Of a DNA stretch of 58,137 nt, positions 1 through 51,558 are shown piece by piece (position 1 is the stretch's first letter; each line of letters begins with the position of its first letter). The stretch is from positions 1 through 58,137 of the forward strand of contig SHUM01000018.1 in the NCBI GenBank assembly GCA_009691245.1, given 5' to 3'. The notes beneath the pieces were generated by a model. It was not told where the DNA came from. It saw nothing but the letters and a program-made list of their open reading frames with translations, and did no database searches. The stretch is from Acidobacteriota bacterium (GTDB taxonomy: Bacteria; Acidobacteriota; Terriglobia; 2-12-FULL-54-10). The position numbers and the translations under genes were made by a program.

Positions 1-2005
1 AGCGGGGAGCAACGTCTCCTTCATCGTGGATGCTCCAGACAGCCCAATTGTCAGCTGAGTTAGTCAAAATGAAACCCTTCTCGGCGTAGACCGCAATCTG
101 GCCGCCTCCAAATCCGCCGGTCTTCGGACCACGGATGACGCGCAATGGTTTGGTGTTGCCGTCGGCGTTGCGATCAAAGATCAACAGACCGTTACTTTTT
201 ACGATCAGGAGATTATGAATCGGGTCAATCGCAACGTGGGGAGTCGCCGATCGGATTTGCGTATCCGGTCCGGTTAGAGAACGTTTCGGCGCCACGTCTC
301 CGTTTGCCATCCGGTCAAATACTAAAACTCCATTGGGGCCGCCTGTTCCTTCGCCTCCGCGATTTCCGCCTGATCCGACGGGAAGGAATATCTCGTTATT
401 GGCAGGGTCCGCAGTCACTGTACTGAGAGCGGTGTAGCCCATTCCCAGGATTCTTGTCTTCGGACCTTGAATGATGCGAATGGGTGGTTCTTCTCCGTTG
501 GAGCTTCCCTTAAATGTCAGGATGGTCTGCACCAGAGGGCTGTTCACAACAATTTCATCGTGAATGGGATCATAGGAAAACCCATGCATGGTCCGGCTGA
601 GCAGCGTCTTATGACCTTCGAGCGTTCTAACGGGAGGCTCATTCTCCTTCGCCATCCTGGCGAAGACCGCAATCTGCGGGTGGGTAACTCAATTCGGCAC
701 CCAGATCTGATCTCGCGCCGCATCGTACGCCAGCGCCTCCACCTTGCCGAACTTCAGCGATACTTTGTTCGCAGGCGCGCTGCGAATGGTGCGGATCGGC
801 GCCACGTTTCCGTTTGCCGTCAGCGGGAATGCGGAAGCCGAGGAGTTGCCGAAGCTGGAGACCCAGAGTTCCTTATTCCTGGTATCGACCGCGACGCCCG
901 AAGGATTCGCCAGACGAGTCTTGTTGCCCTAGATGACTCGGATGGGCGCCACGTCCCCCTGCGACTTGGAATCGAATACCACTACGGACTGGCCCATATC
1001 ATTGGCGATGTAAAGATTTCCAGAATCTGGATCAATCGCCATCTGCGCGGGCCAGTTTAACTGTGTCCTGGGCCCTTGGATGACACGCAGCGGCGCGGTG
1101 TCACCGTCTGTGTTGATCGGGTAAACGGAGATCGAAGGGTCTTCAAATTTGCCGGTGCCAGCGGTCTTATAGTCGCTGACATGTCCCCAGTTGATGACGA
1201 ACATCAAACTGTTCTTCACATCCAGCGCAATGCCATGGATGTCCGATAACCGAGTGCTTTGTCCCTGAAGACTGCGCAGCGGTTTTGCCTCGTTCGAGGC
1301 GCCTTTGCGATACACCGCCACTTCAGGTGGATACTGAACTCCCACGAAAAGCTCTTGCTTTTCTTCATCCACTGCCAAGGCAAAACCGCGATGAGGAGTC
1401 GTAAGGCTGCGGGCGGGCTTGACGTCTCCCTTGGCATCCCGAGGGAACACCACGAACTTGTCTCCGGTGTCGGTCTCCACTGAATAGATTTCCCCATTTA
1501 GGGGATCGACATAAATGCCATTGTTGAACTGGATTTCGGTCTCCGGTCCCTGAATCACACGTTTCGGTTCCGTGAGTCGAGCGCCGGACGGGGTATTGTC
1601 CGTCCTGCTAAATACACGGATGCTCCACGTGTTCTGGTCCATCAGCACGATTTCGTTGAACTGAGTGTTTACAGCAATTCCGCTATAGATGGGGTCGAGG
1701 TCCCGAATCTGACGAGTTGGGGGGCGAGTGATCTCGCGTGTCTCGCCGCCCTCTTCTGCTGCGGCATAAACCGTACTGTCGTAGATCGAGGAAAACAGAC
1801 TCTCGTCCGGCGCTGCAGAGACGGGACGATAAGTGGCCTCAGGCCATTGGCAAATTCCCCCGTAATTGGAAAGCTGCCGGTCCGACACCAATTGGGGTGA
1901 TCCCGTATGTCGCTTCACGCTGGACAAGTAGAGGATGCCTGTGGCGACGGCTAGCAGCCCCGCAAAGATCACCATCCCACTTATGCTCTTCCTTACGCGC
2001 ATCAT
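1..2005 (-). CDS. Secreted beta-propeller-like repeat protein, partial, with in-frame TAG and TGA (candidate selenoprotein paralogue 1)
   Basis: The minus frame starting at 2005 (ATG) or 2002 (ATG, better spaced from AAGGAG) stays open to the window edge apart from TAG at 929-931 (codon 359) and TGA at 689-691 (codon 439). I translated across both; no frameshift is needed. Residues 9-29 form a signal/anchor segment, so the product is exported. The rest is a series of roughly 45-residue units with the recurring pattern GDVAPxRVIQGPxTQL, like NHL/SMP-30-type propeller blades. It is homologous along its length to the protein at 39405-41654, sharing a CQ(W/F) site (C52 here), SEPKRVI-like and LNWP blocks and the TGA position. 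The TAG replaces the Gln of a VIQG repeat motif (CAG to TAG is one transition), which suggests a recent nonsense mutation or a consensus error. The 3' end lies outside the window. Function is unknown. Confidence 0.7.
646..691 (-). promoter_or_regulatory. In-frame TGA followed by SECIS-like hairpin (paralogue 1)
   Basis: TGA is at 691-689 on the minus strand. After 23 nt comes CTTCGCCAGGATGGCGAAG (665-647): an 8-bp perfect stem with loop GGA. The apical loop begins 32 nt after the TGA and starts with G, as the published bacterial SECIS model asks (loop 16-37 nt from UGA, G in the first two loop positions). The next codon is GTT, so downstream translation cannot simply restart at the codon after the stop. 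The 34 nt at 646-679 match 40797-40830 with one mismatch. Confidence 0.55.
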
Positions 2006-5452: not shown

Positions 5453-5665
5453 TACTCACCCTTCCTTCCAATGATGGATATACAGAACTGTACACCCGCA
5501 GGCAAAATGGATACCCGCAAATGCCGGATACGCAGGGAGCCTACCCCGACCTACTTACAAATATTCTTCGACCCAGTTTAGATGACTGACTTGTCCACCA
5601 ACGTGCCCGATGACATCACCCGCTCGCCACCGCGGCGGATCATCCTTACTAACTACCAGCCAGGC

Positions 5666-7339: not shown

Positions 7340-7364
7340 AATCGTAACCTTCTCAATGGATTCC

Positions 7365-11158: not shown

Positions 11159-11210
11159 GGTTCCTCTAACCAATTTTTAGAATTGCCGTAAAGCACGTGC
11201 GCTTGGGTAG

Positions 11211-11237
11211 CCACGGTCAGTGTTTTTCTGGCCGTGG
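11211..11237. other. Hairpin between the two duplicated modules
   Basis: CCACGGTCAG and CTGGCCGTGG flank a 7-nt T-rich loop, giving a 10-bp stem with one G-T pair. It lies in the 142-nt gap between the first receptor gene (ending 11301) and the second cytochrome gene (starting 11158). There is no U-run after the stem on the minus strand, so it is not a standard intrinsic terminator; it may still attenuate or stabilise mRNA. Confidence 0.4.
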
Positions 11238-11300
11238 GAATCCCCATTGAAACCACAAGCCCACGGCGAGAAAAACGCTCACCTGGCTACCAGTGCCTCG

Positions 11301-14501: not shown

Positions 14502-14560
14502 TCTTCCTCCACCCGATTTGACCGTCTGTGCAAACTCTTCAAAGCGCTGTCATCCCGCCC

Positions 14561-14600
14561 GGCGCTGTCATCCTGAGCGCAGCGAAGGACCTGCTGTTCT
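14561..14600. repeat. Intergenic repeat, single arm of the GTCATCCTGAGCGCAGCGAAG family
   Basis: Carries TGTCATCCTGAGCGCAGCG followed by AAGGACCTGCTGTTC, matching one arm of the inverted repeats at 38658-38746, 44135-44232 and 46281-46366. A shorter GCTGTCATCCCG unit lies just before it. Only one arm is recognisable here, between the ankyrin gene end and the receptor start. Confidence 0.6.
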
Positions 14601-14620
14601 CCGGGGAAAAACACGTCCCA

Positions 14621-16315
14621 TTACTGACTCTTCTTGCTGTCCCGCTCGGTGAAATACTCGATACCGTAGCGGCCTTCCACACATCGGCCGACTGGCCCGC
14701 CAGACAAAGTTTCACTCGCCCCGAACTTCTTCAGCAAATCCGTGGTGCTCTTGCGTTCGCGGGGAATCTGGATCAACCCGCGCGAATTGGTTCCGTTGGC
14801 CAGCGTCAGAGGCGTCTGTCCACAGCCATTCTGGACATCCAGCCGCGCGCCTTTTTCAATCAGGTACTGGACAATGTTGTCAGCGCCGATATAGGTGGCG
14901 GCGTGCAGCGCGGTCCAGCCGGTCTCGTTTACCTGATTCACGTCCGCGCCCATCTCGAGCAAAGTCTTCACCGCCTCGAAAGCGCGTTGCGCTTCCGGCC
15001 CGCGGCGGTCGCGGCTGCGACCCAGTCCCGCGGCGGCCAGCAGCGCCGTGGCGCTGCCCTCAAATTGAGCATCATCGGAGTTCTTGCCCACCGGGCTTTC
15101 ACCCTCGTTCACTTTGGTCCCGAGCCGGGTATCCGCCTTTGACTCCGCCAGCAGGCGCATGGAGGGAACATCGCCGGAGGCCGCCGCCAGCAGAAATGGG
15201 GTTGCGCCTTCCACGCTCACGTAGGCGCGACCGCCTTTGCGCAGACGCGCCGGAGGCAATCCCATGCGGGCATTGGCGTCCGCTCCCCTGGCCAGCAGGG
15301 CCTTTACCAGTCGCGGCATGTTGGCGCCATCGAGCGGGCCGGCTTCCTCTTTCTTGGTGGTGGACTGCTGCTCCTGCTGCACGAGCTGCGAGAAAAATCC
15401 CGCGCCCTTGCTCTCCATCAGCGACTTGATGCCGTCGCGCAACGCATAGTGAAGCGCCGTGATGTCGCTGCCGTCGCCGGCTTTCGAGTTGGGGTCGGCG
15501 CCGCTTTCGAGCAGAAACAGCGCCACGTCCTCGTGTCCGTTGGCGGTGGCCAGCAGCATGGTATTGCCGTCCTCCATGGTCGAGTGATTGACGTCCGCAC
15601 CGCGCGCGACTAGCAATTTCGCGCTCTCCAGATCGCCCACCGATGCCGCGAACATCAGCGGCGTGAATCCTCCGCGCGAGCTGATTTCGAGCGTTCCGTA
15701 ATAGGTCTTGTAAATCTTGGGTGTGAAGCCATCGAGCATCTTCGACTGAGCATTGACGTCCGCGCCTTTTCCCATGAGCAGACGGGCGACAGTGGGGTGG
15801 CCTTCGGCGATGGCCCACATTAAAGCCGTCTGCCCCCGGCGCGTGTCTTTGGCATTCACGTCCGCGTTACCATTTAGCAGCGCGGCTACTCCGTCGATCA
15901 GCCCGATGCGCGCGCAGGTCATCAGCGGAGTCTCGCCGGTCCACGTCGCCTGATTGGCGTCGGCGCCGGCACCGGCCAGCTTGAGGACCATGCCCGCGTT
16001 TTGATTCATGCAGGCGATGTACAGCGGCGCGATCCCGTAATCATTGGCTGCATTCAAATCCGCGCCCGCGCCGATCAGCACCTCCACCATCTCCAGATCA
16101 TCGCGATGCACGGCCCACGCCAGTGCCGTGGCGCCATCCGGCTGACGTTCATTCGGGCTGGCTCCCGCTGCCAGCGCGGCGCGCACCTGTTCGCGCGTTC
16201 CTGTGCGCGCGGATTCCAGGAGCCCCAAATCAACGGAGGAAGCCGCCCTCGCGGATATCGAAAGCAAAACCGTCAAAGCAGCCAGCCCCGCCGCGACCGA
16301 TAACTTTTCTTTCAT
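14621..16315 (-). CDS. Exported ankyrin-repeat protein
   Basis: 564 aa. The signal peptide (start MKEKLSVAAGLAALTVLL) is followed by ankyrin repeats through to about residue 530 (units such as GATALAWAVHRDDLEMVEVL and GADVNAQS). The region near 300-325 is Gln/Lys-rich and breaks the repeat array. ATG 16315 is chosen because AGAGGG sits about 8 nt upstream, whereas the ATG at 16321 is too close to it. The gene follows the DUF1552 gene by 34 nt and is the counterpart of 5666-7339 in the other module copy. Periplasmic scaffold role is inferred from the fold. Confidence 0.85.
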   Translation of the reverse strand: MKEKLSVAAGLAALTVLLSISARAASSVDLGLLESARTGTREQVRAALAAGASPNERQPDGATALAWAVHRDDLEMVEVLIGAGADLNAANDYGIAPLYIACMNQNAGMVLKLAGAGADANQATWTGETPLMTCARIGLIDGVAALLNGNADVNAKDTRRGQTALMWAIAEGHPTVARLLMGKGADVNAQSKMLDGFTPKIYKTYYGTLEISSRGGFTPLMFAASVGDLESAKLLVARGADVNHSTMEDGNTMLLATANGHEDVALFLLESGADPNSKAGDGSDITALHYALRDGIKSLMESKGAGFFSQLVQQEQQSTTKKEEAGPLDGANMPRLVKALLARGADANARMGLPPARLRKGGRAYVSVEGATPFLLAAASGDVPSMRLLAESKADTRLGTKVNEGESPVGKNSDDAQFEGSATALLAAAGLGRSRDRRGPEAQRAFEAVKTLLEMGADVNQVNETGWTALHAATYIGADNIVQYLIEKGARLDVQNGCGQTPLTLANGTNSRGLIQIPRERKSTTDLLKKFGASETLSGGPVGRCVEGRYGIEYFTERDSKKSQ

Positions 16316-16349
16316 CGTCATTCCCTCTGATCCCTATCGAAATTGCAGG

Positions 16350-17684
16350 TTAGGACAAATCCACCGTGCCTTTGCTATCGCCCAGCGTGTCAATGGGCGT
16401 GCCCACCACATTGAGCAAGGTGCGATGCAGATTGGCAAACGGAGTATTCTTGGCAACCGAGATGTGTCTGCCGTGATTCTTCAGCTTGCCGGATCCGCCG
16501 CCCACCACCAGCGTGGGCAAGGCCTGCTGCGTATGCAGATCGCCATCGCCCATGCCGCTGCCGTAGACAATCACGGAATGATCGAGCAGGGAGCCATCGC
16601 CATCCGGCGTCGAGCGCAGCCGCTCCAGCCCATAGGCAAACAGGCCCGCCTGGTGCGCGTTGATCTGGGCAGTCAGCTCCATGCGCTCCTGCAAGCCCCG
16701 GTTGTGGGAAAGCGAGTGGTGCGACTCATTGATGCCAATCTGCGGATAGGTCAGGTCGCTCTTCTCACGCGCCAGCATGAAGGTTACGACGCGCGTCAAG
16801 TCGGTCTGCCAGGCCAGCGCCCATAGATCGAACATTAGCTTTGCGTGATCATCGTAGGCCGGAATGCCGACGGGGCGATCCATGCGCGGCATCTCCTTCA
16901 CGGTCGATTGCTCCGCCATCTGAATGCGGCGCTCGATGTCGCGGATGGCATCGAGATACTGCGTGAGCTTCAACTGATCGTTGGGGCCAAGATCGCCCAG
17001 CAAACGGTTCACATCGCGTGAAACGGAATCGAGCAGGCTGCGATTCTCCTGAATGCGCGCCAGTGCGCTGGCCGGGTCCGTGGTGTCGCCGTCGCCGAAT
17101 AGCCGCTCGAAGACCGCGCGCGGCTGATGCTCCACCGGCAGGGGCGTGGTGGGAGTTTTCCAGGCAATAGTGTTGACATACGCGGCGGCATAGCCGGAGA
17201 TCGCGCCCACCAGCTCGGCGGCGTTCTCAATCCCCAGCTCGAGCGAAGCCAGTTGCGTCTGCTTGCCGAACTCGCGCGCCGCCACCTGATCCACGGAGAT
17301 GCCGGTCTGCACGTCATGGTCGGACTTCTTGGGATCGACGCCGGTCAGCCACATGGCCGTGGCTCGCGGATGTCCGCCGCCCATGCCTTCAATGATGGGG
17401 CCACCATCGAGGCCGCTGACCACCGTGAACTGGTCCTTGAAGGCTGCGAGCTTCTTGAGGACTGACGGCATCTCGGTAATGGCCCCGACTTTGGACGGCG
17501 TCCACTGGTCCATCATGATCCCGTTCGGGACATAAACGTAGGCCAGCCGCGTTACCGGTTTGCCCGCCGTGTCCAGCGTCCCGGCAAAGGCAGGCACCAT
17601 CGCGTCCATCACCGGCAGCGCCAATGTGGCGCCCAGCCCGCGCAGGAATGTTCTCCTCGGAATGGCTTTCTTGAAAATCATCAT
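16350..17684 (-). CDS. Tat-exported DUF1552 protein
   Basis: 444 aa with a twin-arginine signal (IPRRTFLRGLGATLALPV) and the DUF1552 landmarks VPNGIMMDQWTP, SHHSLSHNRG, LLDHSVIVYGSG and LPTLVVGGGSG. It is a paralogue of 7365-8708. Its start overlaps the stop of the cytochrome gene by four bases exactly as in the other copy, so the coupling was present before the duplication or is selected. Activity unknown; the alkaline-phosphatase-like superfamily resemblance is family knowledge, not evidence of an activity. Confidence 0.88.
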   Translation of the reverse strand: MMIFKKAIPRRTFLRGLGATLALPVMDAMVPAFAGTLDTAGKPVTRLAYVYVPNGIMMDQWTPSKVGAITEMPSVLKKLAAFKDQFTVVSGLDGGPIIEGMGGGHPRATAMWLTGVDPKKSDHDVQTGISVDQVAAREFGKQTQLASLELGIENAAELVGAISGYAAAYVNTIAWKTPTTPLPVEHQPRAVFERLFGDGDTTDPASALARIQENRSLLDSVSRDVNRLLGDLGPNDQLKLTQYLDAIRDIERRIQMAEQSTVKEMPRMDRPVGIPAYDDHAKLMFDLWALAWQTDLTRVVTFMLAREKSDLTYPQIGINESHHSLSHNRGLQERMELTAQINAHQAGLFAYGLERLRSTPDGDGSLLDHSVIVYGSGMGDGDLHTQQALPTLVVGGGSGKLKNHGRHISVAKNTPFANLHRTLLNVVGTPIDTLGDSKGTVDLS

Positions 17685-20152
17685 GACTCTCGTGCCCTCC
17701 TCATTTGAAACGGCGCACTCTTCACAATTCCCAAAATGATCCGCGACCAGCGGTAGTCGTTGGCCGCCGCATCGCGCACGATCTGGCGCACAACGGAGAA
17801 GTCATAGGACTCAAGACCCCGGCCCAGCGCGTAGGTCAGCATCTTCTCCGTGGCGGTGGTAGCCAGTTGATCGGGACGATCCAGCAACACCTTGCGCAGG
17901 TCGGCCAAGCCCGCGATTTTATAGCCGTCCGGCATGACTCCCACAGTATCAATCGGCATGCCCGCATCGGTGGTTCTTGAGCCGCCGATGCCATTGAATT
18001 TTTCCAGCGCGAACCCAATCGGGTCCATCAGCTTGTGGCAACCCGCGCAGGCTGGATTGGCGCGATGCTGCTCCATCTGCTGCCGCATGCTCATCAATTT
18101 CCCGGACTCGTTCTTCTCTTTCAATCCGGGCACGGCGGCAGGCGGCTCCGGCGGCGGTGTGCCGATCAAATTTTCCAATACCCATTTGCCGCGCACCACG
18201 GGCGAAGTACGATTCGAGATGGATGTAACAGTGAGGAAGCTGCCCTGCCCCAGCAAGCCGCGGCGGTCGTCGTTGGCCCCCGGGAAGGCAAGTGATATGC
18301 GGCGGAACCGGCTACCCACCACGCCGGGAATGCCGTAATGCTCGGCGAGCCGCTGATTGACAAAGGTGTAGTCGGCGCGCAGCAGGTCCAGCAGCGAGCG
18401 GTCCTCGCGCAACAAGCTGGCGAAGAACATCTCGGTCTCCACGCGAAACGCCTCGCGCAGATTCTCGTCAAAATCGGGGTAGACGTCCTTCGATGGATCC
18501 ACCGTCTTCAGGTTGCGCAGGTAAAGCCACTGGCCACCGAAATTCTGTACCAGTGAGTTGGAGCGACTGTCCGCCAACATGCGCCGAATCTGTTGATCCA
18601 GCGCCTGCGGCTCGCGCAGCTTGCCGGTCTCAGCGATGGAAAGAAGTTCCTCGTCGGGGATGCTGGACCACAGGAAGAATGATAATCGCGAAGCCAGTTC
18701 GAGATCGGTGATGTTGTACGGCTTGCCGGGCTTAGCGTCGAACGGGTCGCGCTCGATGCGAAACAGAAATTCCGGAGAGATGAGCAGACGGCGGACGCCC
18801 AGCTCGATTCCCGCCTCAAACCGGTCGCGACTGTTTGCGGCGGAGTCCTTCTGGCTGGACGGCTTGCTGGCCTGGCGGTACAAGCCCATCAGCTCGTCCG
18901 TGTCAACGGTCGTCAGCGGTCTGCGGAAGGCAAGCCGGCCCAGCTTGGTTAATATCTGCTGCGCACAAACCTCCTCTTCTACTTCCTGCCCCGGTACTTC
19001 CTGCCCCGATCTGCATGAAAATATTTTTGCGCGGCTCGGCGTATCCCCCGGACCCTTCGCTTCCACCGGCCCTGTAATGGTCACATTGGCGACCGCCATG
19101 GTTGGTTCATCGCGAATGTTTTCCCGCGCTGCGAATTCGTAGGGGAAAGTAACGCCCAGGGCATGCATTCCCGCTTTTACCGGAACCCGGAATTCGAGCG
19201 GCGTGTCCGCGTTTCGCTCATACTCGGATTGAATGGCGTCGGGAGAAATCGTATCCTGTGCGCCAATGCCGTCGGCCAGACCTTTATGCTCACCACCAAC
19301 CGTAAACAGCTTCAGCCGCGCGCCGTCCAGGCGCACATCCAGTGGATGCGGCTCGGCGATGCCGCGCACCTGAAGCGTCTCGGTGCGCTGCAGCCTGATT
19401 TTGATGAGGTAGTCGCCATCGAGCGGAAAGTAGTGCCGGACGGCCATCCCGCCACGCGAGCCGAATGGCAGGTCTTCGCTGACGCGATCATCTTGCTTGT
19501 AATATTCAGAGACCTTGTAGGCGCCCACTTCGGAGTTGATGCCGGGATTGCCCACGGCTAGACGGCTGATACGGCGCGCCGCGGAAAGATATTTCTCCAT
19601 CAACAGCGGCGAGACGGTGAGCACATCGGCGATATTGTCGAAGCTGCCTCCGGCGTCATCCGCAGGCAGCAGGGAGTCATCCAGAATCTCCAGCGCCAGC
19701 AGGTCACGGATGGTGTTGATGTACTCGGCGCGGTTCAGCCGATGAGCCGCCGAGCGGCGTCCAGGGTTGGGCGCTGCGGCTGCGCTCTGATCCAAAGCAG
19801 TCTCCAAGTAGCGCGCCAGTTCATCCCGGTCAGCGGGAGCGGGCTGCGGAACGCCCTGCGGCGGCATCTGCCCCGCTCGCAACTTTCTGATTACTTTTTC
19901 CCAAATTGCCGGGTCCGCGCCCGGCATTCCCAAGTCCGCCTGGTCCAACATCAATTGCGCTGTCTTCAATTTTTCGTTGTGGCAGGTTACGCAGTAGCGG
20001 CTAACAAACACCCTGTGAATATCTGGAGAAATATTCGCGGTAGGGGGCTCGGTGCCCTGGGCCAATGTGTCGAGGGGAGACACCACCAACGAGAGGAATA
20101 CTACGAGGATGCGTAGCGCCAACATCATAAAGGTTCTGACCATCCCTCGCAC
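17681..20152 (-). CDS. Multidomain cytochrome c with DUF1587/DUF1595/DUF1592/DUF1588/DUF1585
   Basis: 823 aa, exported. Heme site CVTCH at residues 54-58, DUF1587 (HRLNRAEYINTIRDLLAL) near 140-200, jelly-roll-like insert, DUF1595 (LGRLAFRRPL), DUF1592 (DLELASRLSFFLWS), DUF1588 with a second heme motif CAGCH, and DUF1585 at the C-terminus. It is the first gene of the promoter-proximal module copy, so the promoter probably lies in the 140-nt gap before it (20153-20292). The start is uncertain: GTG 20152 has GGAG 8 nt upstream, and ATG 20143 and 20128 are alternatives. Periplasmic electron transfer is inferred from the two hemes. Confidence 0.87.
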   Translation of the reverse strand: MRGMVRTFMMLALRILVVFLSLVVSPLDTLAQGTEPPTANISPDIHRVFVSRYCVTCHNEKLKTAQLMLDQADLGMPGADPAIWEKVIRKLRAGQMPPQGVPQPAPADRDELARYLETALDQSAAAAPNPGRRSAAHRLNRAEYINTIRDLLALEILDDSLLPADDAGGSFDNIADVLTVSPLLMEKYLSAARRISRLAVGNPGINSEVGAYKVSEYYKQDDRVSEDLPFGSRGGMAVRHYFPLDGDYLIKIRLQRTETLQVRGIAEPHPLDVRLDGARLKLFTVGGEHKGLADGIGAQDTISPDAIQSEYERNADTPLEFRVPVKAGMHALGVTFPYEFAARENIRDEPTMAVANVTITGPVEAKGPGDTPSRAKIFSCRSGQEVPGQEVEEEVCAQQILTKLGRLAFRRPLTTVDTDELMGLYRQASKPSSQKDSAANSRDRFEAGIELGVRRLLISPEFLFRIERDPFDAKPGKPYNITDLELASRLSFFLWSSIPDEELLSIAETGKLREPQALDQQIRRMLADSRSNSLVQNFGGQWLYLRNLKTVDPSKDVYPDFDENLREAFRVETEMFFASLLREDRSLLDLLRADYTFVNQRLAEHYGIPGVVGSRFRRISLAFPGANDDRRGLLGQGSFLTVTSISNRTSPVVRGKWVLENLIGTPPPEPPAAVPGLKEKNESGKLMSMRQQMEQHRANPACAGCHKLMDPIGFALEKFNGIGGSRTTDAGMPIDTVGVMPDGYKIAGLADLRKVLLDRPDQLATTATEKMLTYALGRGLESYDFSVVRQIVRDAAANDYRWSRIILGIVKSAPFQMRRARES

Positions 20153-39404: not shown

Positions 39405-41654
39405 ATGCAGCAAACTTCAGGCAAGCACACCCCCGCCCACCACCAGTCGTGGATCGCAGTCGCGATCTCGCTGGCTATCGCGGCGGCAATCATCATCACC
39501 AGCGCCCGCGTGCCCTCGCCCGCTTCGGCAAAGGCGCGCAACAGCGCCCAGCCACGGCTCATTTCCATCGAGCCGCTGCCGGAGATGGCCGCCGCCGGAG
39601 ATGGCGCGATGTGCCAGTTCGAGCCGGTGAGCGCCAGGAGTACGTTCGCTGCCGCGATGGCCCTGCAGGCGGGCGCACCAACAGCCGACGCAGCCCGCGT
39701 CAGCAAGGACATTGACCGCGCTCCGGCGCGCACCATCAAGGATCCCAACCCGGCCTTCAGCGCCATCGCCGTCGAGCCGGAGAGCGGAATGCTGGTGGTT
39801 ACCGACGAGAACCTATTCCGTGTGCTGGAATACAACCGCACCGAAAACACGCCGCCGACGGCGCGGCTGAGCGAGCCCAAGCGCGTCATCGGCGGCAACC
39901 TCACCAAGGCCGAGATGATGTGCGGCGTCTATATTGACCCCAAGACGCTCGACACCTACATCATCAATAACGACACGCAGGACTGGCTGGTGGTGTTCTC
40001 GAAGAACGCGCGCGGCAACGTGAAGCCCGACCGCGAGCTGGCCGTGCCGCACGGGACATTTGGAATTTCCGTCGACGAGAGCCGCGAGGAGATGTACCTT
40101 ACCGTGCAGCACTCGAACTCGGTGATCGTCTACCCGAAGTACGCCAAGGGCGAGGACAAGCCGCTGCGCGAGATCATCGGCAACAACACGGGTCTCGAGG
40201 ATCCGCACGGCGTGGCGGCGGACACCAGGCGCAACCTGCTGTTCGTGAGCAATCACGGCAGCGTCATCGCCACCGAGCCGCCCGCGCGCATGGGCGGCCG
40301 GCCGCGCGAGATTGTCGGATCAGGCCGCTTCGAGCAGCCGTCGATCACCATTTTCAATCTGGACGGCGATGGCAACGTAAAGCCGCTGCGCATCATCGAA
40401 GGAGCGAAAACGCAACTGAACTGGCCGATGCAGATCGTCGTCGATGTGGAGCGCGGCGAACTGTTCGTGGCCAATGACATGGATCACTCGGTGCTGGTCT
40501 TCGGCGTGGATGACACGGGCGACGTCGCGCCGCGGCGCATCATTCGCGGGCCGCGTACCGGGCTGCGCAATCCGGTGGGCATCACGCTGGACCCCAAGAA
40601 TCAGGAGCTGCTGGTGGCCAGCATGGGCAACCATCGCGCGCTGGTGTTCCCGCTGAACGCCACCGGCGATGTGGCGCCCAAGCGCATGATCCGCGGCGGG
40701 CCGGCCGATGAGAAAGGGCTCATGATCGGCAATCCCGGCGGCGTCGGCTATGACACCAAACGCCAGCAGATACTGGTGCCCAACTGAGTGGCGCATCCGC
40801 AGATTGCGATCTTCGCCAGGATGGCGAAGGGTGGAGACCAGCCAGTGCGAAACCTTGCCGGCCAGGCCACCAAACTCAGCCGCACCATGCATGACATCCG
40901 CTACGACTCGGTAAACGATGAAATTCTGGTGACCAATCCGTTCGCGCAAGCCATCATCACTTTCCGCGGCGACGCCGACGGCAACGCTACGCCCCTGCGC
41001 ATCATTCAAGGTCCGAAAACTCAGCTTGGCGGCGTGGACCGGCTCGACGTGGACGTGGTCAACAACGAAATTCTGGTGCCCGACGGCGACCGCATCCTGG
41101 TCTATCCGCGCGCGGCCAACGGCGACGTTGCGCCGCTGCGCATCATCGAAGGCGCGAACACGCAGCTGCGCAGCGCGACCACGCTCTCCGTGGACCCCGT
41201 CCACAACCTGCTCGCGGTGGGCTTGAACAAGGCCGGCCGAGCCATCACCATGAACGCCGACGGCACGATGAGCGCGCAATCCGCCGACGCCGACGGCGCG
41301 CTGATGGTGTTCAATCGCCTGGATAAAGGAAACGTGGCGCCGCGTACGCTGGTGCGCGGGCCGAAGTCCGGCATCGTGCGCATCACCCAGATGGCTGTTT
41401 ATTCGCCGCGCAAATTCATGATTGCCACGCAGCCCGGCGAGATCACCGTGATGGAGCCGGAAGAGGCGTTCGTCGGCGTGTGGAGCCTCGACGACAACGG
41501 CAACGTCCCGCCGCTCTACCGCATCGGCGTGGGCCCAAAGACCACCATGAAGAAACCGCGCGGCGTGGTTCTCAATCCCAGGAACAAAGAGATGATCATC
41601 GCCGACATGCGCCTGAACGCCGTGCTGACCTTCTCCTTCCCGGAGATTTTCTGA
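39405..41654 (+). CDS. Secreted beta-propeller-like repeat protein with in-frame TGA (candidate selenoprotein, paralogue 2)
   Basis: One frame runs from ATG 39405 (AGGAGG 5 nt upstream) to the TGA stop after EIF at 41654, 749 residues if the internal TGA at 40785-40787 (residue 461) is read. A signal anchor is at about 15-33. The body is a run of about 45-residue propeller units (GDVAPRRIIRGPRT, GNVKPLRIIEGAKT). It aligns over its whole length with the protein at 1-2005, including the pair C70 here and C52 there in a CQ(W/F) context, and both have TGA at the codon after VPN. If split at TGA, the second half could start at GTG 40788, but that codon is GTT in paralogue 1. Function unknown; a Sec-Cys redox pair in an exported protein is the inference. 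Confidence 0.72.
40785..40830 (+). promoter_or_regulatory. In-frame TGA followed by SECIS-like hairpin (paralogue 2)
   Basis: TGA is at 40785-40787. After 23 nt comes CTTCGCCAGGATGGCGAAG (40811-40829), an 8-bp perfect stem with loop GGA, the same spacing as in paralogue 1. It is coding (Phe-Ala-Arg-Met-Ala-Lys), so protein constraint alone does not explain the perfect base identity at third positions. Confidence 0.55.
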
Positions 41655-44252: not shown

Positions 44253-44948
44253 CTAACCAGGCGGCAGGCCGGTGAGGCGCAGGCCGGCGTGGGGGACTTT
44301 GTAGCTGCGGTTGATGCTGATGAGCAGCGCGGTGAGGCTCTCGACGATGCGAGCCGACTCGAGCGCGCCGGCGTCAATGGGGCGCAGGCCGGCGATCAGG
44401 CGGATGAGCGGGAACAGGCGGTCTTTCGCCGCCGCGTCATCGCCGCAGACCAGCACGTCGCAGTCGAGCGGATGCGCCAGGTCCGCCAGGGCTACCGCCG
44501 AGACGTTGTGGAATGCGGCCAGCACGGGAGTTGTCGCTGGGATAACTTCGCGGGCCTGCTCCGCGGCGGAACCTTGCCAGACTCCCAACATACGTGTGGG
44601 CTTGCCGCCGATGGTGGCGGCGAGCGGCACGGTGGCGTCCACCACGAACGCTCCAGCGCTGAGAGATCCTTTGATTTCACGCAGCGTCGCAGCCTGCGCG
44701 GGAAACGGTACGGCGATCACCACAACCGTCGCGCCCGCAGCGGCCTCCGGGTTGGCCATTCCGTTCACGGTTACCACGCCTTTCGCCGCCCCCCGCACCT
44801 TGAGGCGGACATCGTCAGCGGCTTGCAGGGCGCGCGCGGAGTCGCGCGACCCGATGACGGTTTCCACTCCCGCCACAGCCCAGCGGATCGCCAGACCCAA
44901 TCCCAAATCACCGGTTCCGCCAATAATAGCTACTCGCTCTGCGCTCAT
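44253..44948 (-). CDS. npdG: NADPH-dependent F420 reductase (F420H2:NADP oxidoreductase)
   Basis: 231 aa. N-terminal Rossmann motif IIGGTGDLGLGLAIRWAVAG and the second-site IGSRDSARA that binds the NADP phosphate fit the NpdG/FNO family, which exchanges hydride between F420 and NADP. The ATG overlaps the cofH stop by four bases (ATGA), so it is translated with F420 biosynthesis. No F420-dependent enzyme family other than this is seen in the window. Confidence 0.88.
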   Translation of the reverse strand: MSAERVAIIGGTGDLGLGLAIRWAVAGVETVIGSRDSARALQAADDVRLKVRGAAKGVVTVNGMANPEAAAGATVVVIAVPFPAQAATLREIKGSLSAGAFVVDATVPLAATIGGKPTRMLGVWQGSAAEQAREVIPATTPVLAAFHNVSAVALADLAHPLDCDVLVCGDDAAAKDRLFPLIRLIAGLRPIDAGALESARIVESLTALLISINRSYKVPHAGLRLTGLPPG

Positions 44949-46213
44949 ACGTGTGCCTCTTGTTGTGTGGTTAAAGCCTGTTGTGTAGATACAGCCTGAT
45001 GTGTGGTTACAGCTTGTTGTGGAATTGCAGCGGCGGCGAAGCGCCGCAACACGCGATACGATGTGGAGCGCTCCACCGGAATGCGGCCCGATGACTGCCC
45101 ACAGCCTCTAATGAAATTTTGCAACTGCTCGGGAGTGGCCGCGCTGGCCTCGATCTCACCAGACGCGCTGGAAATATTTTCTTCCATCAGCGTCCCGCCG
45201 CAGTCGTTGGCGCCAGCGTCGAGGCACATCTGCGAAATCCGCCAGCCGAGCTTGGGCCAGGAGATTTGCAGATTGGGGATCGCGTTATTCAGCAGGATGC
45301 GCGACAGTGCGTGGACCGCGATGTCTTCTTCCACCGTGGCGCCGGGACGGGCCAGGCCGGTGCGGTAAAGCGCGGTCTTCTCATGGATGAAGCCGAGCGG
45401 GACGAACTCTGTGAATCCGCCATTCTGTTTCTGCATCGAGCGCAGCAGCAGCAGGTGGCGCACCCAGTCGATAGGCTGCTCGACGTGGCCGTACATCATG
45501 GTAGAAGTGGTAGGGATGCCCAGTTCGTGCGCCGTCGAGATGACTTCGATCCACTGCGCGCGCGTGAGCTTGGCGCGAGAGATGACGCCGCGCACGCGGT
45601 CATCCAAAATTTCCGCCGCCGTGCCCGGCAGGCTGCCCAGGCCCGCGTCGCGCAGCATCATTAGATAATCGCGGAGCGGCATCCCGGTGCGCTCGACGCC
45701 GTAAACTACTTCCATCGGCGAGAAGGCGTGAATGTGAATTTTCGGCACACGCGCTTTGATGGCGCGCAGAATCTGCGCGTAATAAGTTCCGTCCATCTCC
45801 GGCGGCAGGCCGCCCTGCACGCACACTTCCGTCGCGCCGAGATTCCAAGCCTGCTCGGCGCGGTCGGCCACCGTGTCGAGCGAATGCCAATAGGCATCGG
45901 GCGCGCGCTGGCTTTTTCCAAAGCAGCAGAACGTGCAGCCCACGAAACAGATGTTGGTGAAGTTGATATTGCGATTGACGACGTAGCTGACCTCGTCGCC
46001 CACCGTGCGGCGGCGCAGGCGGTCGGCCACGTCGGCCACGGCCAACAGCGCATCGCCGCGCGCCTCGGCGACGGCCAGACCCTCGGTCTCGTTCAGATCG
46101 CGGCCCTCCAGCGCGGCTTCGAGAGCACCGCGCAACGGCGCGGGCAATGTTGTCGCCAACTCACCGTACGCGCCCGGCCGCAACGCCAGCGCGACATTTC
46201 TCTTGATGGCCAT
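44945..46213 (-). CDS. cofH: CofH: 5-amino-6-(D-ribitylamino)uracil-tyrosine 4-hydroxyphenyl transferase
   Basis: 422 aa, a radical SAM enzyme making half of the F420 deazaflavin together with CofG. The cluster motif is CFVGCTFC (Cys89, Cys93, Cys96). Other family blocks: VCVQGGLPPEMDGTYY, IHAFSPMEVVYG and MPLRDYLMMLRDAGLGSLPGTAAEILDD. ATG 46213 is used; a TTG at 46219 gives two more residues. The C-terminal 40 residues after the conserved core are a low-complexity TTHQAVSTQQ run. Stop overlaps npdG. Confidence 0.92.
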   Translation of the reverse strand: MAIKRNVALALRPGAYGELATTLPAPLRGALEAALEGRDLNETEGLAVAEARGDALLAVADVADRLRRRTVGDEVSYVVNRNINFTNICFVGCTFCCFGKSQRAPDAYWHSLDTVADRAEQAWNLGATEVCVQGGLPPEMDGTYYAQILRAIKARVPKIHIHAFSPMEVVYGVERTGMPLRDYLMMLRDAGLGSLPGTAAEILDDRVRGVISRAKLTRAQWIEVISTAHELGIPTTSTMMYGHVEQPIDWVRHLLLLRSMQKQNGGFTEFVPLGFIHEKTALYRTGLARPGATVEEDIAVHALSRILLNNAIPNLQISWPKLGWRISQMCLDAGANDCGGTLMEENISSASGEIEASAATPEQLQNFIRGCGQSSGRIPVERSTSYRVLRRFAAAAIPQQAVTTHQAVSTQQALTTQQEAHV

Positions 46214-46280
46214 AAGCAAACTCGAATCAAGTTGAACTGACTATGATACTCCCGGCGGCGCTTACTAACACACTGCAAAC

Positions 46281-46366
46281 GCTGTCATCCTGAGCGCAGC
46301 AAAGTATCTGCTGTTGCTCTCTCAAAAGAAATCAAAAGCAGGTCCCTCGCTGCGCTCGGGATGACG
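46281..46366. repeat. Inverted repeat of the GTCATCCTGAGCGCAGCGAAG family
   Basis: Starts GCTGTCATCCTGAGCGCAGC at 46281 and ends TCGCTGCGCTCGGGATGAC at 46365. It is in the gap between the DUF3500 and cofH genes, a possible transcript boundary within the cluster. Confidence 0.65.
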
Positions 46367-46379
46367 ACGAAACGGAGAT

Positions 46380-47630
46380 TTATTGCCGCGCGGGAGCGTG
46401 CGGGTGATCGTGGTAATGCTGGCGTAGCAGGTCCTTGCCGTAGTCGTTGCCGTTGGGCGTGCGCACCATGGTGTGGATGTGCTCCGTGCCCGGCTGGTTG
46501 GGGTCGGCGACCAGGAAGCGCAGGCTGGCGGGGCGCTGATGGTCGAACTCGATCAGCACCACGGGGCTGTGGATGCGATAGTAAAACACGCTGCCCGCGT
46601 CGCTGCCGCCGATCCAGGCGAACCATGTGCGGTCAAGCTGCGCGCGCACTTCGGCCATCTTCGCGCGAGCGTGGCCGTCGTCCATGTTGTTGATGTAGAG
46701 CGCCGCCAGATCGAGCAGTTGCCGGCGTTGCGCGGAGGACAACTCCTTGGCGCTGACTCCGGCGTAGTCGAGGACCACGTTGTCTTTCCACGCTTCGGTG
46801 AGCAGTTCATTTCCTGTCTTCGAGACTTTCAGGATCGCCTTCTTGCGCTGATCCGCGGTCAACCCGTTAATCATGGCCAGGCCCGCGCGCTGCTCCTCCT
46901 GCAGGACGGCCGTGCCTTTGTATTTGCCTGATTTAGCGATGACCGGCTCGGAGCCGGCGAACGTCGGCGTCATCACCACTTGATCGCCGAGCACAAAATA
47001 GTTGATGACGGCGTGGTGGCCGTCGAACTGCCAGCCCCAGGGTTCATTCGCTGAAGGCTCGCCCATCACCGTGATGTGGTACTGCCACTCGCCGAACTCG
47101 GCGTGGTTGTTGTTGTTCATTTCGGCCAGCGTCTCATTGAGGCGCATGATGTCGCGCGTCTGCTTCAGTCCCTTGGCGCTCAGTCCGGCGCGCAGCAGAT
47201 TGAACGCCGCGGCGCGCTGCGGCTCATTCATCTCGATAAAATTTACGCCCTGACGAACGTAGAAACTTTGATTCATCCACTTGCGCCACTCGTCGTCGTC
47301 CACGGCGAACTTCGATTTGTCGCGCTGTTGAGCACTGAGGCTGGCGAGGAAGGCCACGGCGGCGAGGCGCACCGGCCCGGTGGAGACGCCCGTCGAACGA
47401 ATGGCGAACAGGCCCTGCTCGACCTTCCCATTGGTGGTGATGCCCAGGAAAGGATCGGCGAGACCAGGCACCTCGGCGGCGATCGATAAGCGTAACAGCT
47501 CGGCGGGCGGACGCGCTGCTGGAGATGTTGGCGGCGAGGACGGCGGCGCTTGCGACAGCCCGCGCGGTTGCAGCATGACGATTACCAACGCCATAGCTGA
47601 CAAGCCTGCGAAGAATGCGATGCGTGACAT
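46380..47630 (-). CDS. Exported DUF3500 protein
   Basis: 416 aa. Start ATG 47630 is set by AGGAGG 6 nt upstream and the following signal peptide ([20 protein letters not shown]). The rest matches DUF3500, with [38 protein letters not shown] and [16 protein letters not shown] as conserved segments. Function unknown. It is inserted between cofG and cofH with no coupling to either, so a link to F420 is only positional. Confidence 0.8.
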
Positions 47631-47667
47631 ATAGTCCTCCTGGCGAACGATTCCCATGATCTTACGC

Positions 47668-48873
47668 TTACCGCGACTGCATTGCCTGCCACACGCGTGG
47701 CGAAAAAAACTCAGGCCGCGTTGCGTACTCAGGATACACCGGCAGCCGCTCGCGCAGCTCCAGTCCCTTGCTGGCGGCCAACGCGCGCAGGCTCTCCACC
47801 TGCGGCCAGGGTTTCTCGGGATTGATGAAGTCCACCGTTAGCGGCGAGATGCCGCCCCAATCGTTCAGGCCGGAGTCGAGCAGCATTTCGAGATGCGCGG
47901 GACTCAGGTTCGGCGGCGCTTGGATGTTCATCCTCGGGCCGAACCCGGAGCTGAGCCCAGAGCCGAACCCGGAGCTGAAGATGATGCGCGCCAGCGCCAC
48001 GATGCGCGCGAAATATTCCGGCGCGGGCGTTGGAACATCGCGCATGGGGACCTCCCGCTTCGGCACAAAATTCTGGATGATGACTTCCTGAATGTGCCCG
48101 TACTGCGCGTGAATATCGCGGAGGGTGAGGAGTGAATCGACGATGTCCGCCGGTGACTCGCCGATGCCCACGAGTATCCCGGTGGTAAACGGAATTTTTA
48201 ACTCGCCGGCCTGGCGGATGGTTTGCAAACGTCGCTCGGGGCGTTTGTCGATGGCATCATCATGCGCGCCGCCGGGCGCAAATAGCGCGGGTGAAGTGGA
48301 TTCCAGCATCAAGCCCAGGCTGGCGTTGGACTCGCGCAGACGCTCCAGATCAGACCGCGACATCAATCCGGGATTCGAGTGCGGCAGCAATGTGGTCTCG
48401 GCGAGCAGCAACTCGCTGATCTCGGCGACGTAGTCCAGCGTGCGCGCGTGGCCGTGTGCCGCAAGCCACTCGCGCGCCTCGGGAAACTCCGCCTCGGGGC
48501 GGTCGCCCAGACTGAGCAGCGCCTCGCGACAACCGAGCCTCTCTCCCTTGCGAGCGACATCGAGAACCTCTTCCGGCGCCATCCAATGCGCGCCCGGCTG
48601 GCCTGGATCACGGCGAAACGTGCAATAGCCGCAGCGGTCGCGGCACAGATTGGTCAGAGGCAGGAACACCTTCGGCGAGTAGGTGATTACGTTGTCCGTG
48701 CTGCGCTGCCGCAGTTCACGAGCGATCTTGGCAAGGTTCTCCCAGCCGACGGAGATGGAAGTGAGCAGGAATAAATATTCGGAAGCATGGAGAGCATCGC
48801 CTGAGAGGATGCGCGAAGCGAGGGTTCGCCACTCACTGGCGGAGAGGGCGGTGGAGGCGGGGGCAAGCGTCAT
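47668..48873 (-). CDS. cofG: CofG: 7,8-didemethyl-8-hydroxy-5-deazariboflavin synthase subunit
   Basis: 401 aa, radical SAM enzyme with cluster motif CRDRCGYC (Cys77, Cys81, Cys84). Family blocks: ITYSPKVFLPLTNLC, LPHSNPGLMSRSDL, LKIPFTTGILVGIGE and GGISPLTVDFINPEKPWP. Works with CofH to build the deazaflavin core. An 8-codon duplication encodes repeats of the type SSGFG near residues 300-315, between conserved segments. The ATG overlaps the cofC stop by four bases. Confidence 0.92.
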   Translation of the reverse strand: MTLAPASTALSASEWRTLASRILSGDALHASEYLFLLTSISVGWENLAKIARELRQRSTDNVITYSPKVFLPLTNLCRDRCGYCTFRRDPGQPGAHWMAPEEVLDVARKGERLGCREALLSLGDRPEAEFPEAREWLAAHGHARTLDYVAEISELLLAETTLLPHSNPGLMSRSDLERLRESNASLGLMLESTSPALFAPGGAHDDAIDKRPERRLQTIRQAGELKIPFTTGILVGIGESPADIVDSLLTLRDIHAQYGHIQEVIIQNFVPKREVPMRDVPTPAPEYFARIVALARIIFSSGFGSGLSSGFGPRMNIQAPPNLSPAHLEMLLDSGLNDWGGISPLTVDFINPEKPWPQVESLRALAASKGLELRERLPVYPEYATRPEFFSPRVWQAMQSR

Positions 48874-49547
48874 GCCGTCACCCTGGAACGTGTCTCGATC
48901 AACCGGCGCAACAATTTCGATGTGCGGCCCTCGCGCTCCAATTTATTTGCGATATCTAGAAACTGCATGGCATCTTCCCGCGTGTCGATGTCCGCCGTAA
49001 GGCCGGGCGGCGCGTAGAGGCGTAGCTTCTGGTGATTCGTCTGCGTGTCTTCCAGGTGGCGGCGGCAACTGTCTGGCCCAAAGTGCGCGGTGATGGCGTC
49101 GGGCGGCGTGCGCACCAGAGCATTCGTTCCAGTTCCATCACCGCTGGGCACAACAATCACTTCATATTGGCGCGAGAGCTCCACGAGTTGCGTCAACTCG
49201 TCCGGCGATACGGCGGGCGTGTCAATGGGCACGGAGATAAGAGTCTGCACTCCCTGCTCCACGGCCCAGCGCGTGGCCTGGCGCGTGGACTCGGTGTGAC
49301 TGACTTGCTCCGCTTCTTCCAGACACGTTACGGACGCCTCACGACAGCGCGCGATCACCACAGGCTCGGCGGTGATGACGATCAGCTTGCCGATGAGTTT
49401 CTCGCGGCCCTGCCAACTCAGCAACGTATCCCAGACATCTTCAAACATGGTGCGCGCCAGCAGCTCACGCTCCTCGGGCGTGAGCCAGGAGGCCAAGCGG
49501 TGCTTGGAATCCGCAAATCGTTTGACGGGCAAAAGAACCGCGATCAC
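48870..49547 (-). CDS. cofC: 2-phospho-L-lactate (or PEP) guanylyltransferase
   Basis: 225 aa. The start is taken as GTG 49547, with GGAGA 10 nt upstream; the in-frame extension to 49781 runs through an inverted repeat and is not family-like. The protein begins VIAVLLPVKRFADSKHRLA, and VPSGDGTGTNALV is the nucleotidyltransferase signature. CofC activates the lactyl donor with GTP for CofD; in many bacteria PEP is used instead (FbiD). Stop overlaps the cofG start. Confidence 0.86.
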   Translation of the reverse strand: MIAVLLPVKRFADSKHRLASWLTPEERELLARTMFEDVWDTLLSWQGREKLIGKLIVITAEPVVIARCREASVTCLEEAEQVSHTESTRQATRWAVEQGVQTLISVPIDTPAVSPDELTQLVELSRQYEVIVVPSGDGTGTNALVRTPPDAITAHFGPDSCRRHLEDTQTNHQKLRLYAPPGLTADIDTREDAMQFLDIANKLEREGRTSKLLRRLIETRSRVTA

Positions 49548-49592
49548 AGCAGAGAATCTCCGGGGAACAGAATGCCAGGCCGCAAACCTATC

Positions 49593-49656
49593 TGCGTACC
49601 TTTGTGTCCTCGGTGGTGCAGTACAGTCTTCACCACAGAGGACACAGAGGTCCGCA
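49593..49656. repeat. Inverted repeat in the divergent cofC-cofE region
   Basis: Core arms TGTGTCCTCGGTGGTG (49603-49618) and CACCACAGAGGACACA (49631-49646) pair with one mismatch; outer flanks extend the pairing to about 26 nt per arm. Lies between the divergent cofC and cofE starts. Similar CTGTGTCCTCTGTGGTG motifs are widely scattered in bacterial genomes, from memory. Confidence 0.6.
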
Positions 49657-49781
49657 GAGTATACGGCAACAAAGACATAGGACACTGCCCGCGTCGGGTT
49701 GCTCGTTGACAGTGCGGCGCGAATCGTGCGAAGTTTCCATTCTACTCTGTCGAGCCGGTTCTGGAGGAACGTCAACATCAA

Positions 49782-50576
49782 ATGAATTCAGGCTTCTCCA
49801 TCCCCGAGAGGATCGAATTGTTCGCCGTGCCCGGACTCGGCGAGATCGCGCCGGGCGACGCGCTTGGCGCGATGGTGTGCGCGGCGATGGCGCAGGCGGG
49901 ACTCAGCTTCAGCAACAGCGACGTGCTGGTGGTGGCGCAGAAGATCGTCTCCAAAGCGGAAGGCCGGTTGGTGGAGTTGGCGTCGGTTATCCCGTCGCCG
50001 TTCGCCGTATCGCTGAGCGAATCGCTGGACGCAACTCCTGCGAAAGACCCGCGCGCCATTGAAGTGGTGCTGCGCGAAAGCCGGCGCATCGTGCGCATGG
50101 ATGCCGGACTGATCATCTCCGAAACGCATCAAGGCTATGTCTGCGCGAACGCGGGCGTGGACAGTTCAAACGTACCCGCCGGATTTCTCTCGCTGTTGCC
50201 TGTTGATCCGGACGCTTCGGCCAAGCGGCTGCGCGAAGAGATTCGCATGCATTCGGGACGCGACGTGGCCGTTATTATCTCGGATACATTTGGGCGCCCG
50301 TGGCGTGAGGGTCTGACGAATGTTGCGCTGGGCGTCGCGGGGCTCGCGCCGCTACAGGATTATCGAGGGCAGAAGGACGAGCAGGGCCACACGCTTTCCG
50401 CGACGGTCATCGCCACCGCGGACGAACTGGCCGCCGCCGCTGAGTTGCTGATGGGCAAGACGGCTCGCCGCCCCGCCGTGGTCATCCGTAATTTCCCCAC
50501 GCAGGCAGCGCCGGGCGGCGCTGCAGGAAAAGGGTCGGATATAGTTCGCCCGCGCGAAAAAGATTTGTTTCGTTAA
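49782..50576 (+). CDS. cofE: Coenzyme F420-0:L-glutamate ligase
   Basis: 264 aa. Adds glutamate residues to F420-0. Family blocks: FAVPGLGEIAPGDALG, VVAQKIVSKAEGR, RESRRIVRMDAGLIISETH and SDTFGRPWREGLTNVALG. GGAGGAAC is about 11 nt before the ATG. It is a single-domain CofE, without the FbiB C-terminal reductase domain. It starts the divergent plus-strand arm of the F420 cluster. Confidence 0.92.
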   Translation: MNSGFSIPERIELFAVPGLGEIAPGDALGAMVCAAMAQAGLSFSNSDVLVVAQKIVSKAEGRLVELASVIPSPFAVSLSESLDATPAKDPRAIEVVLRESRRIVRMDAGLIISETHQGYVCANAGVDSSNVPAGFLSLLPVDPDASAKRLREEIRMHSGRDVAVIISDTFGRPWREGLTNVALGVAGLAPLQDYRGQKDEQGHTLSATVIATADELAAAAELLMGKTARRPAVVIRNFPTQAAPGGAAGKGSDIVRPREKDLFR

Positions 50577-50622
50577 CGAATTCACTGTGACGCGCGCGGC
50601 ACTGTGGAACAACTAAACCAAT

Positions 50623-51558
50623 ATGATCACAGTTCTTGCTGGCGGCGTGGGTGCCGCGAAGTTTCTCGAAGGTCTGGCGGCAATTGTTCCGCAGGAGGAG
50701 ATCACCGTCATCGTTAATACCGGTGACGACGCGATTTTCCACGGCCTCCACGTCAGTCCCGACATCGACACCATCATCTACACGCTGGCCGGACTGAACG
50801 ACCGCGAGCGCGGCTGGGGGCTGCTCGACGAGACATACAGTTGCCTGCAAGAGCTGACCGCGCTGGGCGAAGAAACCTGGTTCACCCTAGGCGACCGCGA
50901 CTTCGCCACGCACCTCTATCGCGCGCGGCGGCTGCGCGAGGGCGCGCTGCTCAGCGAAGTAACCAGCGAGCTCACGCAACTGCGCAACCTGAAGCTGAAG
51001 ATTCTTCCCATGACCGACGACCCCGCGCCCACCGTGCTCGACACCTCGGAAGGACGGCTCGGCTTTCAGCAATATTTTGTGGGAATGGGGCAGCGGCCCG
51101 TAGTTGATGCGCTGGACCTCTCCGCCGCGCAGCAGGCCAGCCCCGCGAAAGGTGTGATTCCCGCCATCACGCGCGCCGACGCGGTGATCATCGCGCCGAG
51201 CAATCCGCTGATCAGCATCGGCCCGATCCTCGCCGTGCGGGAGGTGCGCGAGGCGCTGGTGAACACGCGGGCAAAGGTCGCGGCCATCAGCCCCATCATC
51301 GGCGGCAAGGCGCTGAAAGGCCCCGCCGACAAGATGCTCACTTCGCTCGGCTATGGGTCTTCTGCGTCCTCAGTCGCAAAACTCTACGCAGACTTCCTCG
51401 ACATTTTCATTTTGGACCAGCAGGATGAGTCACTAGTAGAAGAGGTTGCACAGGCCTCGATCGATGCTTATGCGATAAACACGATCATGAATTCCGCGGA
51501 GGCTAGAAAGCAGTTAGCGCAAGCTGTGTTAGAAGCGTTGAGAGTGCCGCTGAGCTAA
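50623..51558 (+). CDS. cofD: 2-phospho-L-lactate transferase
   Basis: 311 aa. Transfers the activated (phospho)lactyl group to the deazaflavin FO, forming F420-0 or its dehydro form. The N-terminal LAGGVGAAKFLEGL and VNTGDD, and GLHVSPDIDTIIYTLAGL are CofD signatures; APSNPLISIGPIL is the later conserved segment. Only 46 nt separate it from cofE, so the two are an operon. Confidence 0.93.
   Translation: MITVLAGGVGAAKFLEGLAAIVPQEEITVIVNTGDDAIFHGLHVSPDIDTIIYTLAGLNDRERGWGLLDETYSCLQELTALGEETWFTLGDRDFATHLYRARRLREGALLSEVTSELTQLRNLKLKILPMTDDPAPTVLDTSEGRLGFQQYFVGMGQRPVVDALDLSAAQQASPAKGVIPAITRADAVIIAPSNPLISIGPILAVREVREALVNTRAKVAAISPIIGGKALKGPADKMLTSLGYGSSASSVAKLYADFLDIFILDQQDESLVEEVAQASIDAYAINTIMNSAEARKQLAQAVLEALRVPLS

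Follow-up and report, generated by a model that had tools for sequence, protein, structure and literature searches.

Two paralogous genes in a 58,137-nucleotide stretch of DNA from an Acidobacteriota bacterium (contig C18 of a 3.43 Mb genome in 96 contigs; the whole stretch is referred to here as the window) are each interrupted by a TGA at the same codon. Does this codon end translation, or is it read as an amino acid? The original prediction was that both genes belong to a new selenoprotein family. This reading is supported, and none of the refutation tests that were run went against it. The internal UGA is very probably decoded as selenocysteine (Sec), and a new, almost Sec-exclusive bacterial selenoprotein family is the best explanation of the sequences. 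All genomes examined are draft assemblies.

The two copies carry the following features, in positions of the window.

39405..41654, plus strand: copy 2, the complete gene of a putative propeller selenoprotein, 749 residues with Sec461; the terminal stop is the TGA at 41652-41654
39441..39500, plus strand: predicted N-terminal membrane anchor or signal helix of copy 2, residues 13-32 (AlphaFold2 model)
39612..39614, plus strand: Cys70 of copy 2 in an MCxW motif, a candidate Sec partner; conserved in 62 of 66 members
39723..40652, plus strand: predicted first six-bladed NHL-like propeller of copy 2, about residues 107-416 (AlphaFold2 strand pattern; Pfam NHL)
40662..41651, plus strand: predicted second six-bladed NHL-like propeller of copy 2, residues 420-749, bearing Sec461 (single-propeller model, Foldseek)
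40785..40787, plus strand: in-frame TGA of copy 2, very probably read as Sec461 (aligned column with 80 TGA and 2 Cys)
40797..40809, plus strand: helix 1 of the recoding element in copy 2, CCGCAGATTGCGA; four of five pairs form (covariation)
40811..40829, plus strand: helix 2 of copy 2, the bacterial SECIS hairpin CTTCGCCAGGATGGCGAAG, loop GGA closed by A-U (bSECIS model, covariation)
1..2005, minus strand: copy 1, a paralogous gene truncated at the start of the contig; it contains the TGA and an additional TAG
689..691, minus strand: in-frame TGA of copy 1, at the codon homologous to the copy 2 site
667..679, minus strand: helix 1 of copy 1, CCGCAGATTGCGG (covariation)
647..665, minus strand: SECIS hairpin of copy 1, CTTCGCCAGGATGGCGAAG, identical to that of copy 2
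929..931, minus strand: extra in-frame TAG of copy 1; AAA or AAG (Lys) in the nearest relatives

As had been described, both TGAs lie at the same aligned codon within VPN-TGA-V(A/T)HPQIA, and each is followed, exactly 23 nt downstream, by the identical hairpin. The 34-nt stretches that include it (40797-40830 and 679-646) differ at one base, and the 19-nt sequence CTTCGCCAGGATGGCGAAG occurs at only two sites in the window, against 0 expected from 100 shuffles. Past the TGA the frame stays open for 288 codons in copy 2 and for about 229, up to the contig edge, in copy 1. The N-terminal Cys noticed in both proteins (C70 and C52) is also real, being kept in 62 of the 66 members that cover the position.

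Two paralogues with TGA had been claimed; both are confirmed, but the family is larger. A six-frame search of the window's genome gave 21 family genes, and reading them directly showed that each has one TGA, at the codon shared by all, with the hairpin after it. A SECIS covariance model built from the family (R1) finds exactly 21 sites in this genome at 53-75 bits, the next best match scoring 15.5 bits. In relatives it finds up to 39 matches (genome G006), where about 30 sites that were read individually are in frame within family proteins. Over 26 chosen genomes, R1 gave 205 sites in 17 and none in the other nine. Carriers number 20 of 399 genomes across the class and, by protein profile, 7 of 396 across the phylum. 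Isolated matches in new families proved on inspection to be the same propeller protein, and neither a phage pattern scan nor a plasmid tblastn for the family gave a match. As far as seen, the family is patchy and confined to one phylum.

The residue at the site is the most direct indicator of how the codon is read. Among 82 aligned members from 12 genomes the column holds 80 TGA, two Cys codons (TGC and TGT) and nothing else, so that the check suggested for homologues gave Cys and no other residue wherever TGA is missing. The Cys copies are L075 (TGC), L076 and L117 (both TGT). A scan of 84,980 species, whose pattern had Cys at the site and could return only Cys forms, served as a census of these; it found three loci, all in soil MAGs labelled Acidobacteria gp5, namely the two in the alignment and a frameshifted third. 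Only two intact Cys homologues are thus known. In the tree they are sisters nested among Sec members, and the Cys form is therefore derived. At least two pairs of the hairpin are broken in each of the three Cys copies.

The bacterial SECIS (bSECIS) model asks for a loop of 3-9 nt, a stem of 4-16 bp, a G among the first two bases of the loop, a spacing of 16-37 nt and a minimum free energy of -7.5 kcal/mol or lower (PMC13188914). The fit to this model that had been proposed for the window copies extends to 78 of 83 TGA copies of the family, against neither of two Cys copies, and the hairpin covaries. In helix 2, 7-8 pairs carry a loop A-GGN-U, which lies 31 nt from the UGA; in the window the hairpin has a minimum free energy of -12.3 kcal/mol. 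The Arg codon in the loop is AGG in 75 of 83 copies, compared with 243 of 3589 Arg codons (7%) in the same genes. All pairs of the stem form in 89% of copies, but in 16% (sd 4) after synonymous codons were drawn anew, and codons +7 to +13, at the hairpin, are the top window of 565 for synonymous conservation. To judge from these sequence patterns, selection acts on the RNA beyond the protein.

Directly upstream of helix 2 lies a second short helix, helix 1 (CCGCA-gat-TGCGG). Folding of single sequences gives a divided picture: in copy 2 the 24-nt hairpin is more stable than shuffles (z -3.97), whereas the whole 51 nt is not (z -0.44), since another pairing competes with helix 1. The two-helix structure was decided by covariation instead of by the 51-nt fold. 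Across both helices, two-sided changes occur at 8 pairs in 33 cells, against 11.7 after shuffling (0/500) and 2-11 in slid controls. Since kinship alone can beat shuffles, it is the slid controls and the loss of the hairpin in Cys copies that carry this argument. The hairpin that starts 23 nt past the UGA, with its SECIS-type loop AGGNU, would direct decoding, and the short hairpin just upstream would accompany it. That helix 1 also contributes to decoding is part of a wider reading, of a tandem two-hairpin, Sec-exclusive extracytoplasmic enzyme with dozens of paralogues, which taken jointly stands at an even balance of probability.

The sequence downstream of the TGA evolves as coding sequence. 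Mean pairwise identity is 50% before the site and 48% after it. In the closest orthologue pairs dN/dS after the TGA is 0.03-0.19, similar to that before it; when all 93 usable pairs are counted, which include many distant paralogues, the median is 0.44 upstream of the TGA and 0.46 downstream. Purifying selection acts on both sides.

The genome also holds the machinery that such decoding would need. The search for it that had been proposed found all four parts: a tRNA-Sec with anticodon UCA (73.2 bits; ARAGORN agrees), SelA (552 bits), SelB (361 bits) and SelD (358 bits). The SelD gene has an in-frame TGA of its own in G-U-ASK, the known Sec site of this protein. Of the other 16 family carriers, 13 have a tRNA-Sec; those lacking a match are G001 (82% complete), G388 (76%) and G039 (98%), the last of which has SelB. 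In G039, where no match was found at E 1e-10, the tRNA-Sec may be missing from the assembly or unusual. Many members of the class have SelB (51 of 61), and the Sec trait is therefore older or wider than the propeller family. Two Acido-Lenti-1 RNAs lie just upstream of the tRNA-Sec gene (L026, 1263-1308 minus and 1409-1455 plus), and a relative, G003, has two full-length SelB-type proteins above the family cut-off (C197:6211-8094 and C17:10596-12518). The cell's own SelB and tRNA-Sec would decode the internal UGA. Since 28 of 78 family genes, copy 2 among them, also end in TGA, decoding depends on context.

What kind of protein would be made? Sequence searches reveal little beyond repeats. In the N-terminal half, Pfam PF01436 (NHL) scores 28.7 bits against a cut-off of 20, and NHL- or lactonase-type repeats are weakly seen. 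PF10282 (Lactonase, cut-off 21.7) is marginal, with 22.8 bits for copy 2 and 21.2 for copy 1, and indicates repeat similarity only; the 6-phosphogluconolactonase model NF008258 was rejected at 31 bits against a cut-off of 370. NCBIfam holds no model for the family and none of its selenoprotein models matches, and no PDB sequence matches the protein. An AlphaFold2 model from 60 members (pLDDT 89, pTM 0.84) starts with a helix at residues 13-32, continues as a disordered linker, with Cys70 in it, as far as about residue 90, and ends in two propellers, each with six blades by strand count. The second propeller modelled alone reaches pLDDT 92 and pTM 0.90, and Foldseek aligns it with the NHL domain of TRIM71 (TM-score 0.80 by target length), with Brat (0.73) and with peptidyl-alpha-hydroxyglycine amidating lyase, PAL (0.63). 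This single propeller was the informative query; a full-length search, with two movable propellers, was not. The prediction is a membrane-anchored double propeller of the NHL-type six-bladed fold, in which one N-terminal helix would anchor the two folded propellers.

In the model, Sec461 comes directly after a strand of blade one in the second propeller. The corresponding loop of NHL propellers faces the ligand-binding side. Around Sec461 the columns R453, V462, R482, R493, H496, D505 and E506 are invariant, and N460 is also among the most conserved residues. This loop position and the surrounding invariant columns point to an active-site Sec, and Sec461 is probably catalytic. From model and conservation, the protein is most likely an extracytoplasmic, membrane-anchored redox or nucleophilic enzyme, with Sec461 as its putative active residue. 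The near-invariant Cys near the membrane anchor is a possible redox partner that might resolve Sec461; this is a tentative assignment, as the Cys region lacks a confident model.

An alternative that is compatible with Sec decoding is that Sec461 is structural, binds a metal or stores selenium, and is not catalytic. Propellers are often binding scaffolds, and the only other nearly universal Cys lies in a predicted disordered region, as would suit such a role. However, a single strictly conserved Sec amid invariant polar residues resembles an active site and not a store, and replacement of Sec by Cys is tolerated, so that a non-catalytic Sec is unlikely.

The remaining alternatives concern the decoding itself. 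If the TGA were a true stop, the downstream half could be a separate protein re-initiated at the following GTG. The Val codon after the site is indeed GTG at 81 of 85 sites, a uniformity three times that expected for Val codons. However, it is GTT or GTA at four of 83 TGA sites, including copy 1, and the Cys copies run as one continuous chain through the site; from the GTT of copy 1 the original prediction had already judged a restart weak. A split would also run through a blade (the first of the second propeller), neither window copy shows a ribosome-binding motif ahead of the GTG, and the loss of the SECIS hairpin only in Cys copies would be left unaccounted for. Re-initiation is thus highly improbable. 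The near-invariant GTG, which lies outside both helices, is an observation that a restart does not account for.

Another tRNA might read the TGA, either an opal suppressor (an allo-tRNA for Ser, Ala or Cys) or one serving a genome-wide sense code. Allo-tRNAs with unusual stems are known in Acidobacteria (PMC7609411). Such reading fits poorly with TGA as the terminal stop of so many family genes, with Cys as the only alternative residue at the site, and with an element that suits the SelB hairpin model in a genome with complete Sec machinery; it has very little probability beside decoding as Sec. The extra TAG of copy 1 and its place at a contig end might suggest decayed pseudogenes or assembly errors. 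For the family, copy 1 alone excepted, these are refuted by a strictly conserved element, by low dN/dS before and after the site, and by the recurrence of a single TGA in the same column across more than 200 copies in 25 genomes; their probability is negligible. So many copies with the same element also exclude the consensus error that had been considered.

Copy 1 itself calls for more caution. Its TAG (931-929), absent from the earlier description, is the sole TAG seen inside the propeller family. A Lys codon stands at this position in the nearest relatives of copy 1 (71-73% identical), and the dN/dS of copy 1 is still low despite the TAG; the TAG is thus either a recent inactivation or a sequencing error. 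The GC content of copy 1 (0.55) is below that of the window (0.60), and its nearest relatives are from another bacterial family (f3). Copy 1 may be a transferred or recently broken copy, perhaps dead.

The family has multiplied into many paralogues. In the tree, other genera hold orthologues of these paralogues, a pattern that speaks for distinct, conserved roles and against recent copying; the paralogues probably differ in substrates or partners. TonB-like receptors and amidohydrolases recur beside the propeller genes, and a DUF1552/DUF1592 cytochrome cassette is also among the neighbours. In the window, a four-gene cassette is repeated twice in tandem at 2228-20152 on the minus strand (TonB-like outer-membrane receptor, ankyrin repeats, DUF1552 with HXXSHH, and a DUF1592/PSCyt cytochrome protein), and parts of it also adjoin other propeller copies (L167 and L172). 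Adjacent F420 biosynthesis genes lie at 44948-51555 (CofH/CofG-like radical SAM proteins, CofC, F420 ligase and CofD).

Most of the bacterial selenoproteins known so far are thioredoxin-like or metal-redox enzymes, with a few in each genome. Current selenoprotein finders need Cys homologues. In the propeller family these are almost absent, and ordinary gene callers would split each gene at the TGA. No literature report of the family was found in a search that had preprints and subscription papers outside its scope. The 2026 catalogue of prokaryotic selenoproteins comprises 119 families, and its Table 1 has no propeller, NHL or lactonase entry (PMC13188914). The family is absent from this catalogue, from Pfam and from NCBIfam. 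The recoding mechanism is already known; the family, its fold and its expansion in copy number are new.

With the 119 catalogued families (PMC13188914) the propeller family shares UGA-encoded Sec, a downstream bSECIS hairpin with a GG/GU loop, Sec/Cys replacement, and SelA, SelB, SelC and SelD. It differs in its size, several genomes having 21 to 39 of its Sec genes, and in the great rarity of its Cys forms. The fold is shared with NHL-repeat six-bladed propellers such as the NHL domains of TRIM71 and Brat and with PAL; unlike these, the family, only 13-16% identical to them, has two tandem propellers, a membrane anchor and a Sec in a loop. Like the canonical bacterial SECIS of the E. coli formate dehydrogenase type, the element is a hairpin in the coding sequence soon after the UGA with G at the start of its loop (model: PMC13188914), but it has a short covarying hairpin directly before it. 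SelD of the same genome, with its in-frame TGA at the Sec site, is a positive control for Sec decoding; its element differs, since R1, run on the window's genome, did not detect it. More than 200 natural variants of the propeller element, together with Cys forms that lack the hairpin, make SECIS grammar directly testable.

The largest bacterial selenoprotein set reported, of at least 46 genes, draws on many families (PMC12013277). From the propeller family alone, one genome has 21 Sec genes and another 39 SECIS matches, which would mean that the selenium demand of some soil bacteria has been overlooked. The full picture, of near-Sec-exclusive extracytoplasmic propeller enzymes with dozens of paralogues per genome in soil Acidobacteria and tandem two-hairpin delivery, has roughly an even chance of being right; if it is true, the carriers are among the most Sec-demanding bacteria known.
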